Source: Methanosalsum zhilinae DSM 4017
GTDB taxonomy: Archaea > Halobacteriota > Methanosarcinia > Methanosarcinales > Methanosarcinaceae
NCBI RefSeq assembly: GCF_000217995.1
Contig: NC_015676.1
Span: 1-64,000, forward strand
Direction of reading: 5' to 3'
Length of the DNA stretch: 64,000 nt
The stretch's first letter is position 1. Each line of letters opens with the position of its first letter. Below, in pieces: positions 8,694-14,668 of the stretch. The translations under genes were made by a program, and so were the position numbers. Below the pieces are notes generated by a model. That model did not search any database, was not told the origin of the DNA, and was given only the letters and a program-made list of their open reading frames with translations.

Positions 8694-10019
8694 TCATTTT
8701 ATTAATAATAGATATATGTCCATAACATTGGTACCTGTAGGGCCTGTTATCAACAGATTCCCGGTCTGTTTGAAATAATGATACGAATTGTTCTCAGCCA
8801 GATACTTTCCTGCATTAAGTCCTAATTTTTCCCCCTTCCCAATTGTCTGACCATCTGCAAAGGCACCGGCAGCATCTGTTGGTCCATCGGTTCCGTCAGT
8901 ACCTGCACACAGCATCATAACGTTATTCATTCCTGCACATTCCATTGAAAAGGACAGGGCAAATTCCTGGCACCTTCCACCTTTACCATTCCCGGATACA
9001 GTTACAGTAGTTTCACCTCCGGCTATTATGCATGCAGGTAATGTTACGGGTCTGCTATGTTGTTCTTCCCTTGCGATTGCTGCAAAGACCCTGGCTACCT
9101 CTCTGGCTTCACCGGTAATAGTGGATGTAAGAACAATTGAATTATATCCAAGGTCAACTGCTACATCCACAGCACGGGATATTGCCAGTCTGTTGTTTGC
9201 AATGATATAATTATGGCATCTTTTAAATATAGCATCTTCTGGCTTTGGTGTTTCCCTGATAAGGCCGTCAGCACCTTCTTCAATAAACTTTTGTACAGCT
9301 AGAGGCAGCTGAATATTGTATCGTTCGATTATTTCCTTGCACTGGCTGAAAGTGGAAGTATCAGGAGCTGTGGGACCTGATGCAATAACATCCAGAGTAT
9401 CTCCCACCACATCAGAGAGTATGAGGCTGATTGATTGTGCAGGATAACTCATTCTTGCAAGTCCACCACCTTTGATTGCTGAGAGATGCTTTCTGATAGC
9501 ATTGAGCTCGCCAATAGTGGCTCCTGCCCTCAAAATAGTTTCTGTTGTGATCATCATGTCTTCAAGTGATATTCTTTCGTGAGGTAATGTAAGCAGTGCT
9601 GAACCACCACCTGATATCAGGTATATAACCAGATCCTTTTCACCGACTTTATCCAGCATGCTTCTCACTTTTCTGGCTGCAGATAATCCGTTCTGGTCAG
9701 GTACAGGATGTCCAGCCTCAAAAACAGGTATAAAATTTAAATTTGAGCCATAACCGTATTTGGTTATTGCAATCCCTTCAGAAATTCTATCTCCAAGTAT
9801 TTTTTCTATAGCCTCTGCCATAGATACAGCAGCTTTTCCAAAAGCAATCACATAGATATTATTGAAGGAATCCAGATCATATCTTTTGCCTTCAATGCTA
9901 AGGATTTCTCCAGTCCTTTCAATGGCCCTAGTCACAGACCTACCCGGTTCAACAGATTTGATAGCTTCTGTAATTATCTGAGTGGCATCACTTTTAAGTG
10001 CCTCTGAATCACTATCCAT
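8694..10019 (-). CDS. Glycerate kinase, MOFRL/DUF4147 family (glycerate 2-kinase)
   Basis: Phosphorylates D-glycerate with ATP; archaeal members of this family produce 2-phosphoglycerate. The N-terminal DUF4147 domain contains VIAFGKAA, GHPVPD and LISGGGSALL, and the C-terminal MOFRL domain contains AGGETTVTV, GKGGRCQEFAL and AGTDGTDGPTDAAGA. The length of 441 aa is normal. A strong AGGAGG is six bases before the ATG. It follows gpgS by 15 bp on the same strand, so the two form an operon. From this I infer a role in recycling glycerate released from glucosylglycerate, feeding it back to glycolysis/gluconeogenesis. Confidence 0.9.
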   Translation of the reverse strand: MDSDSEALKSDATQIITEAIKSVEPGRSVTRAIERTGEILSIEGKRYDLDSFNNIYVIAFGKAAVSMAEAIEKILGDRISEGIAITKYGYGSNLNFIPVFEAGHPVPDQNGLSAARKVRSMLDKVGEKDLVIYLISGGGSALLTLPHERISLEDMMITTETILRAGATIGELNAIRKHLSAIKGGGLARMSYPAQSISLILSDVVGDTLDVIASGPTAPDTSTFSQCKEIIERYNIQLPLAVQKFIEEGADGLIRETPKPEDAIFKRCHNYIIANNRLAISRAVDVAVDLGYNSIVLTSTITGEAREVARVFAAIAREEQHSRPVTLPACIIAGGETTVTVSGNGKGGRCQEFALSFSMECAGMNNVMMLCAGTDGTDGPTDAAGAFADGQTIGKGEKLGLNAGKYLAENNSYHYFKQTGNLLITGPTGTNVMDIYLLLIK

Positions 10020-10034
10020 AGCAAATCCTCCTGA

Positions 10035-11231
10035 TCAGTCAGATGGAAGGATCTCTGTCATAACATCTCTAAATATTCTTGCGTTTTTCTTTATCTCACT
10101 CTCAGCTTCTGTAAGATTCATATCCTTACATTCTTCATAGAATGCAATAAATCTGGTAAGCCATAAAACCCTCAATGCGTCAATGATGACCGTGTTTTTC
10201 TCATCGCAATATCTGTTGAACATATGCCACACACAGCGAGCCCAATTATCGGCATCCAGAGGTTTGTTCTCTCTGATGGTGGCGCAGATATGATTCATTA
10301 ATTCAGAGGGAAATGTTCCTTTGTAGATATCAGAGTATTCACCAAACCTGAGATTGACGGTTTCTTTCATTTTCTCTATATCCATTGTGATAGGTACCGG
10401 TGAAGGTCCGAAATACTCTGATGTTTCAATAAGGTCTCCACCTCTGTACCTGAAATTTCGGTCTGAATAATAGATTGCCAGATCAAACATCTCCCTTACG
10501 ACCTGCCTGAACATTGGTATGATTGAAGATTCAGGTTCAACATATTTTGAGGTGGACTCATGAAGTTTAAGGCCAAGCATAGCTTCCCTGATCCTGTGAT
10601 TTTCAGCAGCTGCAACACTTGTAATAAAAATATCTATTCCAAAGTCCGGAGGGAATAGCGGGTGCTGCCTGAGGGATTCAGCAAGTCTTTTTGAAATGCA
10701 GAACTCACCACCAATAGGCTGTCTAACATCAATTCCGTAATAGGCCATTGTGAATGGATACCCCAGGTTATTTGTAATCACACCATCGAATTTATCCCTT
10801 ACATAGAATGGGACAACAAGACCCGTCCGTCCGTACAGTACAGGTCTTACCAGTTCCTGTATCCATTCACTTTTAATGGAAAGAAGGTCCCCATCTACAA
10901 ATGCTACAGCCTTTGCATCCAGATGATGGGCAATCTCTATAACGGTACGCATACCATTTCCTTTACCCGGATCTCCCATCTGCTCTACTACCATCTTCTG
11001 TACCGGAGAGATATCAAACATCTCAGCCAGTTCTGCTGTTCTGTCAGTTGAGAAACCGTCCGAGACCACAACAAGTGTTCTGTATGGAGAGAGGTACTGC
11101 ATCACCCCCTCACGAACAACGTTCATTACATGAAGTATTGTTGGTTCAACATTTTTGGTCTGTATTCCGATTACCACATCGACTTTTCCCACATTTTCCA
11201 GCTTATCTGAAATCCCCGCATTAAGTTCCAT
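10035..11231 (-). CDS. gpgS: Glucosyl-3-phosphoglycerate synthase
   Basis: GT-A fold glycosyltransferase (GT81-like) that transfers glucose from an NDP-glucose donor to 3-phosphoglycerate, the first step to the compatible solute glucosylglycerate. DVVIGIQTKN, VVVSDGFSTDRT and the metal-binding AFVDGDLLS follow in family order. The length of 398 aa is close to the characterised Methanococcoides burtonii enzyme. A related mannosyl-3-phosphoglycerate synthase cannot be fully excluded. The phosphatase (GpgP) that normally completes the pathway is not adjacent; a glycerate kinase is there instead. A TATA-like ATTATATAATTA lies at about 11250-11275 on the minus strand. Confidence 0.85.
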   Translation of the reverse strand: MELNAGISDKLENVGKVDVVIGIQTKNVEPTILHVMNVVREGVMQYLSPYRTLVVVSDGFSTDRTAELAEMFDISPVQKMVVEQMGDPGKGNGMRTVIEIAHHLDAKAVAFVDGDLLSIKSEWIQELVRPVLYGRTGLVVPFYVRDKFDGVITNNLGYPFTMAYYGIDVRQPIGGEFCISKRLAESLRQHPLFPPDFGIDIFITSVAAAENHRIREAMLGLKLHESTSKYVEPESSIIPMFRQVVREMFDLAIYYSDRNFRYRGGDLIETSEYFGPSPVPITMDIEKMKETVNLRFGEYSDIYKGTFPSELMNHICATIRENKPLDADNWARCVWHMFNRYCDEKNTVIIDALRVLWLTRFIAFYEECKDMNLTEAESEIKKNARIFRDVMTEILPSD

Positions 11232-11380: not shown

Positions 11381-12439
11381 TCATTTGGCTGACAGGTCTG
11401 AAAGGGAGATAAAATCCTTTGTCTTGCAGATACTATCCAGTTTTTTGAGCTGGATATTTTCGGATTCAAACACGTTTTCTACTGTCCTTTCCACAGTATA
11501 TGTAAGCTCATCAGGCTCCACTCCGGTTACAGCAGTCAGTAATTTCAGACCAGCCCCGTTATTTTCAGACTTTTCAAAGATATCAGATGCCGGTAAATCC
11601 TCAAAGGAAGTAAGACTTGTCTTTACCATATTTCCTGGAATATCAATAATAGCCTTCATATGGCCGATAAATAGAGGACTCTTGTTCATTACTTCTTCCT
11701 TGAGTTTGAGGAGAAGCTTTTCAGAAACAGATCTGGCTGTATCCAGATCAATCTCAGGCAGGAGCTCGAATTCTGCAGAGTATGTGGATATTTCTGACAT
11801 CTCTATCGAATCCAGTCTGGATGCATTTTTCTGGGTATGACTGTCCCGGAAAATATTGCTGAACAGTTTCTGGAACCTTTCATCACTGATTCTGGCTGAG
11901 AATTGCATTATCTGTGCATCTTCATTGATCTCACGGAGTCTGTTGATAACTTCAGGTATTCTCTCAGGTGGGGCGATATCTATTTTGTTTATACCAATGA
12001 TTTCTGCTTCTTCTATCTGTGTGACAATGAACTTAGGGATCTGCTTGAATTCAGTACTGAACCTTTTCCCATCTACAAGACAGATGATGGGTGCAAAGGT
12101 GATACCGGGAATGCCTATTGTTGCAAGATCGTCCCTTATCTGGGCAGGGAAAGCAATTCCCGTAGGTTCTATCAGCACAATATCGGGATCAAATTCTTCT
12201 TTAAGGGCCCTTAACGTATTTTCCACATCAATCCTGAGAGAGCAGCAGATACATCCGCTTGTAAGTTCACTTGTTCTGATTCCGGAACTGGATATGGTAT
12301 CTCCGTCAATTCCGATTTCACCTATTTCGTTTACAATTATGGCTACTTTCTGATCATTTGTGCTTAACTGTCTTCCTAGATTGAGTATAGCTGTAGTCTT
12401 TCCACTTCCAAGAAATCCACCAATTATTGCTACTTTCAC
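11381..12439 (-). CDS. CobW/COG0523-family G3E GTPase, putative metallochaperone
   Basis: G3E-class GTPase thought to deliver zinc or cobalt to client proteins. Walker A is GGFLGSGKTT at residues 7-16. The hallmark metal site GCICC is at about 62-66. INKID is the NKxD-type guanine motif. A C-terminal CobW domain occupies roughly residues 215-345. The start is GTG at 12439, with AGGTGA five bases upstream. It lies 56 bp downstream of a zinc-dependent UroD-type methyltransferase on the same strand, and a MetE-like gene is divergent from that. A metal-supply role for these zinc enzymes is inference from context. Confidence 0.85.
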   Translation of the reverse strand: MKVAIIGGFLGSGKTTAILNLGRQLSTNDQKVAIIVNEIGEIGIDGDTISSSGIRTSELTSGCICCSLRIDVENTLRALKEEFDPDIVLIEPTGIAFPAQIRDDLATIGIPGITFAPIICLVDGKRFSTEFKQIPKFIVTQIEEAEIIGINKIDIAPPERIPEVINRLREINEDAQIMQFSARISDERFQKLFSNIFRDSHTQKNASRLDSIEMSEISTYSAEFELLPEIDLDTARSVSEKLLLKLKEEVMNKSPLFIGHMKAIIDIPGNMVKTSLTSFEDLPASDIFEKSENNGAGLKLLTAVTGVEPDELTYTVERTVENVFESENIQLKKLDSICKTKDFISLSDLSAK

Positions 12440-12495
12440 AAAATCACCTATTAATTATATATCGGTATTTTCTAATTATCAAATGGTACAGAAGC

Positions 12496-13506
12496 TTAAT
12501 TCATACAATATTCATCCCTTGCCCTGACCAATGCCTTCAGATTTTTAATCGGGCTTCTGGGTGCTATTCCGCAGGAAGGGGCCAGTATATCCACATCTTT
12601 TTCCAGGCATTGCCTGGACTCCTTTATTACATTTTCAGGGGATGTGCTTAGGAGTGTCCTGTATGCAGATACATTTCCTGCTATTATTGCCCTGCCTGAT
12701 ATGATTTCACTGGCCTGTGACAGATCAATTGATTCCTCCAGGCTGATCCCATCAAACCCACACTCTGAGATAGCATCCAGAATAGGGAGAGCAGTTCCGC
12801 ACATATGAATGATCTTTCTTCCCTTTATTCTATCTGCAAGCCTTTTATGCAGTGGCTGAACCAGTGATTCATACATGCCAGGATCCAGCAGATCAGGCCC
12901 GGCAATACCGTCTGCAACTGAAATGATATCTGCTCCACAGTCCAGTAATGCATCTGCATACTCTATGCATACATCAGTTGCAATCTGCATAATACTGTCA
13001 ATATTTTCAGGGTTTAGTACAGACCATGTAAGAAAATTATACATACCAGTAAGATGGGCTGTGAGTGTGGCAGGCCCCTCCATTCCGGCAATAAGGGGTA
13101 CATTGCCATCTGTTCTTTCTTCGAGAATACGGGTAGCTTCCAGTACTGAAGGAACTCTTTTTGCATTAAGGAGACCATCCGGATATATGACCTCATTTTT
13201 TTTATCAGAAAGAGGATGTGTTATCACAGAGGGCTGTACATCAATTCTTCCCATGTTCACATCACATCCCATTGCCTCTGCAAGAACTGTCAGACAGTAT
13301 GGGTAGCGTACTGCCTCAAAACCTGCTATTGTATGCCCGGCCAGGGCAAGTGATGCCATCAATTCAGGATTTATGTGGGATTCTGGCCAGAAAGAGTCTG
13401 TCATCTGCATCTGATATACAGTGGCTGTCTGGGTCACTGAAACCACAGGGACAATATCTGGCTTTCCAGAATTCAGGACAGTGAATAACCTCTGTTTTAA
13501 ATCCAT
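12496..13506 (-). CDS. MtaA/CmuA-family (UroD-fold) methylcobamide methyltransferase
   Basis: Uroporphyrinogen-decarboxylase-fold protein of the branch that includes methylcobamide:CoM methyltransferases MtaA and MtbA. The zinc ligands of that branch are visible as H-x-C in IIHMCGT and a distant cysteine in APSCGIAP, which true decarboxylases lack. At 336 aa it matches MtaA/MtbA length. A TTG six bases upstream is possible, but the ATG of MDLKQ is preferred. No corrinoid protein or substrate methyltransferase is adjacent, so the methyl donor and acceptor (coenzyme M or another thiol) are unknown. CobW follows in the same direction. Confidence 0.8.
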   Translation of the reverse strand: MDLKQRLFTVLNSGKPDIVPVVSVTQTATVYQMQMTDSFWPESHINPELMASLALAGHTIAGFEAVRYPYCLTVLAEAMGCDVNMGRIDVQPSVITHPLSDKKNEVIYPDGLLNAKRVPSVLEATRILEERTDGNVPLIAGMEGPATLTAHLTGMYNFLTWSVLNPENIDSIMQIATDVCIEYADALLDCGADIISVADGIAGPDLLDPGMYESLVQPLHKRLADRIKGRKIIHMCGTALPILDAISECGFDGISLEESIDLSQASEIISGRAIIAGNVSAYRTLLSTSPENVIKESRQCLEKDVDILAPSCGIAPRSPIKNLKALVRARDEYCMN

Positions 13507-13630
13507 GATCAATTCTGAATATGGTGCTGGTTAATAAAACAGTTTACGGTAAGATCTGTTATATTGTTCAGGTCGGTGGAAAAACTTTATGGAACAAAGA
13601 TATAAATGATATCCAGTCAAACTTTGTACC

Positions 13631-14668
13631 ATGAGCAGCATAATCTATGATGATATTGGAAGTTATCCTCTTCCTGAAGGAGTTAGCAGAGACTGGCTAC
13701 AGGTCCAATTTGAAAATGATCCGGATAATGAAAAGCTAAAATCTGTTGTCAGTGATGTTTTCAGGCAGAAGATTGATGCCGGAGTGGAGGTACCCACATA
13801 TCCTCAGCTAAGGGATATGAATAATCAATTCCTCTCAATTATCAAAGATCCCGGATGCTGTGATGAACCGTTCAGGGTGCGTGAGGAGGCAGCGGTTATA
13901 GCTGAACTGGAAATGATAGAACAGGCAGCTTTACTTTATTATCAGCAGACAGGAGAAAGACCTGATATCCGTATCTGTGTTACTGGACCTGTTGAACTGT
14001 ATCTTCAGGAATTTGGAAGCAGTGAGTATACCGATATTCTAAACCAGCTGGCTGAAAGTGTTAACCTTTTTGTAAAGAATGCTGTACGATCCGCAAGGAA
14101 CTTCAGGGTGAGAACTGTTTCAATTGATGAGCCGAGCATAGGAATAAATTCCCAGATCATGTTTGATAATCCACATATAATCGATGCACTGACAGCTTCA
14201 GGAGATTATGCAAGCAGAAACAATATTGATGTGGAGATTCACCTGCACTCTCCCCTGCACTATGAACTTGCCTGCCAGGCAGAAAGCATAAATGTGATAG
14301 GCATCGAATCTGCTGCAAGTCCGTCTTATTTCGAACTGATCGACAAAAACATTCTTGAGAAATGGGATTCCTTTTTGAGGGTTGGTATTGCAAGAACAGA
14401 TATTTCCAATCTGGGTGCGATCCTTAATGAAAAGCACAGTATGAATGTATGGAAGAACCCTTCAATGCTGCAGGAGATTGTGACTGGTATGGAAACTCCG
14501 TCTGTTATTGCAAAGAGACTCGAGCGGGCATATTCTCTGTTTGATGAAAGAATAAAATATGCAGGTCCAGACTGTGGACTTGGTTCATGGCCCTCGCAGG
14601 AAATTGCATTTAATCTTCTCTCAAATGTAGCAAAAGGTATTACGGAATTTAGAAAAACAATGAAATGA
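13631..14668 (+). CDS. Short MetE-like (core) methionine synthase homologue
   Basis: Corresponds to the C-terminal catalytic half of cobalamin-independent methionine synthase, as in archaeal core-MetE proteins that use a methylcorrinoid rather than methyl-folate. VSIDEPSI, IGIES and PDCGLGSWP match MetE landmarks; the last holds the C-terminal zinc cysteine, and IES the zinc glutamate. The usual H-x-C zinc pair reads HSP here (EIHLHSPLHY), so one cysteine is missing. At 345 aa it is slightly long for a core MetE. It is divergent from the UroD-type methyltransferase. TATAAATG at 13601-13608 is about 23 bases before the ATG, pointing to a leaderless mRNA. Confidence 0.75.
   Translation: MSSIIYDDIGSYPLPEGVSRDWLQVQFENDPDNEKLKSVVSDVFRQKIDAGVEVPTYPQLRDMNNQFLSIIKDPGCCDEPFRVREEAAVIAELEMIEQAALLYYQQTGERPDIRICVTGPVELYLQEFGSSEYTDILNQLAESVNLFVKNAVRSARNFRVRTVSIDEPSIGINSQIMFDNPHIIDALTASGDYASRNNIDVEIHLHSPLHYELACQAESINVIGIESAASPSYFELIDKNILEKWDSFLRVGIARTDISNLGAILNEKHSMNVWKNPSMLQEIVTGMETPSVIAKRLERAYSLFDERIKYAGPDCGLGSWPSQEIAFNLLSNVAKGITEFRKTMK

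Follow-up and report, generated by a model that had tools for sequence, protein, structure and literature searches.

The cobW-mtaA-mesC locus of Methanosalsum zhilinae: a candidate folate-free core methionine synthase in a lineage-specific gene neighbourhood

The window analysed here is a 64-kb stretch of DNA that constitutes the first 64 kb of the 2,138,444-base single-contig genome of Methanosalsum zhilinae DSM 4017, and three adjacent genes within it are the subject of this report. The leftmost, cobW (11381-12439, minus strand, GTG start), encodes a 352-residue G3E GTPase of the COG0523/CobW family (PF02492, E 1.4e-40); it lies downstream of mtaA (12496-13512, minus strand), from which it is separated by a 56-bp gap, and which is predicted to encode a paralogue of MtaA, the methylcobamide:coenzyme M methyltransferase, a zinc enzyme of UroD fold (NF040654). 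A divergent intergenic region of 118 bp (13513-13630) separates mtaA from mesC (13631-14668, plus strand), whose 345-residue predicted product is a core methionine synthase of the MesC family that has no folate domain (NF004712). Inspection of the open reading frames shows that all three are intact and lie where the original prediction had placed them. No corrinoid-protein gene is present at the locus. The host is a salt-loving methanogen whose sole recognisable methionine synthase gene has as neighbours one gene that belongs to methanol metabolism and another that probably serves zinc delivery. Directly downstream of cobW (8694-11231) are a glycerate 2-kinase-like gene and a glucosyl-3-phosphoglycerate-synthase-like gene, which possibly have a role in compatible solutes; this pair is missing at the corresponding place in M. 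natronophilum (L067).

The mesC gene product scores 527.9 bits against the NCBIfam model NF004712, 'methionine synthase' (cut-off 387). We used this model because the Pfam MetE search, which we had tried as a means of finding core MetE copies and then dropped, misses MesC entirely, and a Pfam search of the protein itself gave no matches. Members of the MesC family are recognised by the zinc ligands His, His (replacing Cys643), Glu and Cys together with the homocysteine-binding residues Ser, Gln and Asp, and these correspond here to H204/H206/E226/C315 and S11/Q59/D166 respectively; the SQDHHEC residues are invariant in all 126 of the 126 MesC sequences aligned, and agree with the sites listed in PMC7857596, where E226 and C315 are numbered 225 and 314. 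As a search of PDB sequences with a MesC profile returned no matches, the fold was compared instead, and with an AlphaFold model (pLDDT 92.7) the best Foldseek matches are to the MetE structure 1t7l (E 1.2e-11) and the MesD structure 3rpd (E 9.7e-10). The MtaA structure 4ay8 appears lower in the list (E 1.5e-5), as expected from the fold that UroD and MetE have in common. The model consists of a single MetE-type barrel without the folate-binding N-terminal domain.

Our scans of the genome, which were family searches, gave no match to PF01717 (MetE) and none to PF02574 (the MetH/BHMT homocysteine domain), so that MesC is the only recognisable methionine synthase. Its family is near-universal in Methanosarcinales, with members in 177 of 186 genomes, and the closest comparisons are with a Methanosalsum metagenome-assembled genome (MAG; 96% identity) and M. 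natronophilum (63%). The original prediction that this MetE-like gene is a candidate for a core methionine synthase independent of folate is thus supported by the family model, the zinc and homocysteine residues and the predicted MetE fold, and we regard MesC as this organism's candidate folate-free core methionine synthase.

Price, Deutschbauer and Arkin (2021; PMC7857596) proposed MesC, by prediction, as the methionine synthase of Methanosarcinales, predicted that its methyl donor is the corrinoid iron-sulfur protein (CoFeSP), and suggested that different corrinoid proteins might serve the extra MesC copies of Methanosarcina. On the source of methyl groups for methionine in this order, comparative evidence that bears on the CoFeSP prediction is available from two genera of the family (g6 and g8) with reduced genomes of 1.3-1.8 Mb (n=8; G084-G089, G101 and G102, with loci L264-L270), most of them 57-81% complete. 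The genes for CdhD and CdhE, which make up CoFeSP, are present in the M. zhilinae genome at 1.24 Mb. No CdhA above cut-off was found in the eight reduced genomes, all of which retain MesC and six of which retain a diverged CdhC (34-46% identical to that of M. zhilinae). Survival of MesC without CoFeSP in these genera would have favoured MtaC as the donor, and this was rejected, as CdhD/CdhE are kept in seven of the eight, the eighth being a 57%-complete assembly. Retention of CdhDE after the loss of CO dehydrogenase is the pattern expected if CdhDE feeds methionine synthesis, and it suggests that CoFeSP is kept for this purpose in the reduced genera; on these gene distributions CoFeSP is likelier than MtaC as the methyl donor of MesC. 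This retention is not proof of a donor role: the reduced genomes are mostly incomplete, and CdhC has persisted as well, so that CdhCDE could be maintained there for another reason. We have not found this argument, from retention of MesC and CdhD/CdhE with loss of CdhA, stated in the literature consulted. We also note that a cdhC-cdhD-cdhE remnant occurs alongside MesC in the reduced genomes, and that the two genera appear to resemble the Methanimicrococcus/Methanolapillus gut clade, for which loss of CdhA and CdhB is reported, with retention of two or three Cdh subunits (PMC11362671).

The UroD-fold gene matches the MtaA model NF040654 over its full length at 494.7 bits (cut-off 400), but reaches only 253.7 bits against the MtbA model (cut-off 600), which supports its assignment as the coenzyme M (CoM) methyltransferase MtaA and not as MtbA. 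The true start is probably the ATG at 13506 (MDLKQR). The HxC motif (H236, C238) and C314 are kept and align with the HICG and PGCG sites of 4AY7, in agreement with the earlier description of this gene as encoding a zinc methyltransferase. The genome encodes four proteins that match the MtaA model and one MtbA, and the canonical MtaA gene is at 2068185-2069204, where it forms a block with ramA and cobW that adjoins two mtaCB pairs; the window protein is placed in a second branch of the MtaA tree.

A cluster at L157:3580-10964 (1906580-1913964 in the genome) encodes a methyltransferase in which corrinoid and UroD parts are fused, a HyuA-like and a chaperonin-like protein, a short CobW/HypB-like GTPase, and an MtaA-like protein that scores 411 bits, barely above the cut-off. 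The chaperonin-like protein, of about 535 residues, adjoins genes for MtaA, CobW, RamA or HyuA in several genera (L157:7708-9315, L225:2507-4117, L230:7964-9598, L239:6329-7936, L240:5293-6897 and L246:6604-8223). A Methanohalophilus MtaA paralogue (L261; G108:C1:1474201-1475400) contains an in-frame TAG close to its C-terminal end and no longer has the third zinc cysteine (LSPRSEINP), and is therefore probably decaying; a match containing TAG is also listed in G109.

We compared the neighbourhoods of 100 mesC loci. Apart from the window, the complete cobW, mtaA and mesC triple is present in a single Methanosalsum MAG (L042/L062). The neighbour of mesC is cobW without mtaA in M. natronophilum and Methanococcoides, and mtaA without cobW in Methanohalophilus, whereas a Methanohalobium-like genus has two genes of mtaA type there; the loci sampled from Methanolobus, Methanomethylovorans, Methanosarcina and ANME-type groups all include mesC but have neither gene beside it. 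In Methanoperedens (ANME-2d) we looked for a corrinoid protein beside mesC and found none, the conserved downstream genes encoding an AAA ATPase-like protein and an unrelated small protein. The linkage across Methanosarcinales that the original prediction proposed as a check is thus restricted to M. zhilinae-type Methanosalsum, with pairs recurring in four related genera, and because the triple is so confined the three genes are for the most part not linked in relatives.

These comparisons raise the question as to whether the adjacency is simply coincidental, with mesC lying in an old conserved gene order whose upstream slot is a variable insertion point for unrelated genes, those for CobW and MtaA included. 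The order downstream of mesC (kaiC-like, EF-Tu-like and CBS genes) is indeed conserved in many genera of Methanosarcinaceae, though not in Methanosarcina, whereas the slot upstream varies by genus and is filled elsewhere by genes for hsp20, glycerate kinase, a glycosyltransferase, an FKBP-like protein and others. Nonetheless, random insertion would not readily bring two families associated with zinc methyltransferases to one and the same slot in four genera, although this is a post hoc observation that may reflect only two events, and the placement of cobW next to mtaA fits a pattern seen across the genome. We consider coincidence a serious contender at somewhat less than even odds; it concerns the adjacency only, and is compatible with the gene functions that we favour below.

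The CobW protein has a Walker A motif (GGFLGSGKTT) and a CXCC metal motif (GCICC, residues 62-66), and its nearest solved relative is YjiA (1nij, E 9.4e-16). The genome has four genes of the CobW/HypB family, of which three have an MtaA-family gene at a distance of about 2 kb or less, and among 53 listed CobW genes from 20 genomes of the family, 23 are no more than 8 kb from an MtaA or MtbA gene where about 1.3 would be expected by random placement, although many of these loci are related and so are not independent events. What bears on the role of the many CobW-like GTPases of methylotrophic methanogens is that their genes are near those for CoM methyltransferases far more often than random placement predicts. 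The clustering is real, but was already known from the work of Haas et al. (2009; PMC2770081), who described a COG0523 subfamily (subfamily 13) that clusters with mtaA, mtaB, mtaC and ramM, noted MtaA and MtaB as zinc enzymes, and predicted that a COG0523 gene of M. acetivorans is co-regulated with znuABC. Taken together, these observations make zinc delivery to MtaA the best reading, and the window CobW most plausibly serves the zinc of MtaA; delivery to MesC is possible. The metallochaperone role suggested originally is therefore reasonable and has precedent, in keeping with the PF02492 match and the CXCC motif. When 36 CobW proteins are compared in a tree, however, the members encoded in mtaA-ramA-cobW operons form their own clade (100/100) with the window CobW outside it, so that its client could be another metalloprotein. 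In Methanosarcina-type genomes (L238, L243 and L245) genes of the window CobW group adjoin those for small ArsR-like or HTH-like proteins, and are also near an aspartate-semialdehyde dehydrogenase-like gene.

The same clustering admits a different reading, in which CobW is a G3E GTPase related to cobalt or corrinoids, acting as a chaperone of corrinoid enzymes much as MeaB does for methylmalonyl-CoA mutase, and not as a zinc chaperone. This would account for the proximity of CobW genes, both here and in PMC2770081, to the corrinoid-related mtaC and ramA in addition to mtaA and mtaB, but it sits poorly with a locus that has two predicted zinc enzymes as neighbours and no gene for a corrinoid protein, and with the predicted znuABC co-regulation in M. 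acetivorans; we think it unlikely.

A TATA-box-like sequence, ATATAAAT (13600-13607, plus strand), is located 24-31 bp upstream of the mesC ATG, from which the transcript would be short-leader or leaderless. Alignment of ten mesC upstream regions shows the box to be conserved in Methanosalsum, Methanococcoides, Methanohalophilus and the Methanohalobium-like genus, but no conserved operator is found across the same ten regions, nor any Rfam match or riboswitch in the mtaA-mesC divergent region. A sigma-70 promoter scan was disregarded as not meaningful in an archaeal host. Of the divergent promoter that mtaA and mesC had been supposed to share, the 118-bp divergent geometry stands, but only the TATA box of mesC itself is clearly conserved across genera, and with neither a shared operator nor an RNA family co-regulation is unsupported here.

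All three genes come from described families and are found together in the closest relatives only, which argues for an ordinary gene neighbourhood rather than a new pathway. The reading that we favour, to which we assign a probability of about 0.7, is of three enzymes, each already known, in a neighbourhood specific to the lineage, with MesC as a methionine synthase fed most likely by CdhDE, MtaA as a parallel methyl acceptor, and CobW most plausibly as a provider of zinc. Building on the observed gene identities, residues, predicted fold, distribution and synteny, we would assign the enzyme activities, donor protein and zinc transfer as follows. The MetE-type barrel of MesC would bind homocysteine through zinc (held by His/His/Glu/Cys) and accept the methyl group that a methylated corrinoid protein, in all likelihood the corrinoid iron-sulfur protein CdhDE, carries; the divergent MtaA paralogue would serve methanogenesis by passing to coenzyme M the methyl groups of MtaC-type methylotrophic corrinoid proteins; and the CobW GTPase would load zinc most plausibly into enzymes of the MtaA type and possibly into MesC. 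MtaA and MesC would then be parallel methyl acceptors and not consecutive steps.

This differs from the original proposal that the three genes form one methyl-transfer module, which is not supported, given the confinement of the triple to two Methanosalsum genomes and the use of CoM as acceptor by MtaA enzymes, a specificity that removes MtaA as a step towards methionine. A module in which CobW, MtaA and MesC cooperate, with MtaA or its corrinoid partner giving MesC its methyl group and CobW giving both their zinc, could draw on the repeated filling of the argS-mesC slot by the cobW and mtaA families (in M. natronophilum, Methanococcoides, Methanohalophilus, the Methanohalobium-like genus and Methanosalsum), on a single-clade origin of the mesC-adjacent MtaA proteins that is not rejected (p-AU 0.23), and on the alternative donors suggested for the additional Methanosarcina copies (PMC7857596), but it is improbable given the absence of the triple from the other sampled genera, of a corrinoid-protein gene and of a conserved shared operator, and a window MtaA that scores with CoM-specific enzymes. 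A functional partnership of some kind among the three genes is possible, but beyond the recurrent adjacency it is unsupported. In its fullest form, which we regard as quite unlikely, a real partnership in halophilic Methanosarcinaceae would have this CobW group loading zinc into both zinc-thiolate methyltransferases, the divergent layout balancing the methyl supply of CoM (energy) against that of homocysteine (biosynthesis), and MesC accepting methyl groups from methylotrophic corrinoid proteins as well.

Returning to the preferred reading of three known enzymes, each has a counterpart among characterised or described systems. The window MesC is an ordinary single-copy member of a family already described (PMC7857596; NF004712/PRK06052), and we find no difference from that family: its length, zinc and homocysteine residues, taxonomic range and predicted MetE fold are alike, as is its standing as the sole recognisable methionine synthase of its genome, and its copy number is one where Methanosarcina has 2-3. 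CobW resembles COG0523 subfamily 13 (PMC2770081) in being a CobW-type GTPase whose gene adjoins mtaA in a genome of Methanosarcinales, but it belongs to a different clade from the CobW proteins of the mtaA-ramA-cobW operons, and the likeness is one of co-localisation. The window MtaA is a second-type paralogue, 48% identical to the canonical MtaA of the same genome, and has its zinc ligands in common with the M. mazei MtaA structures 4AY7 and 4AY8.
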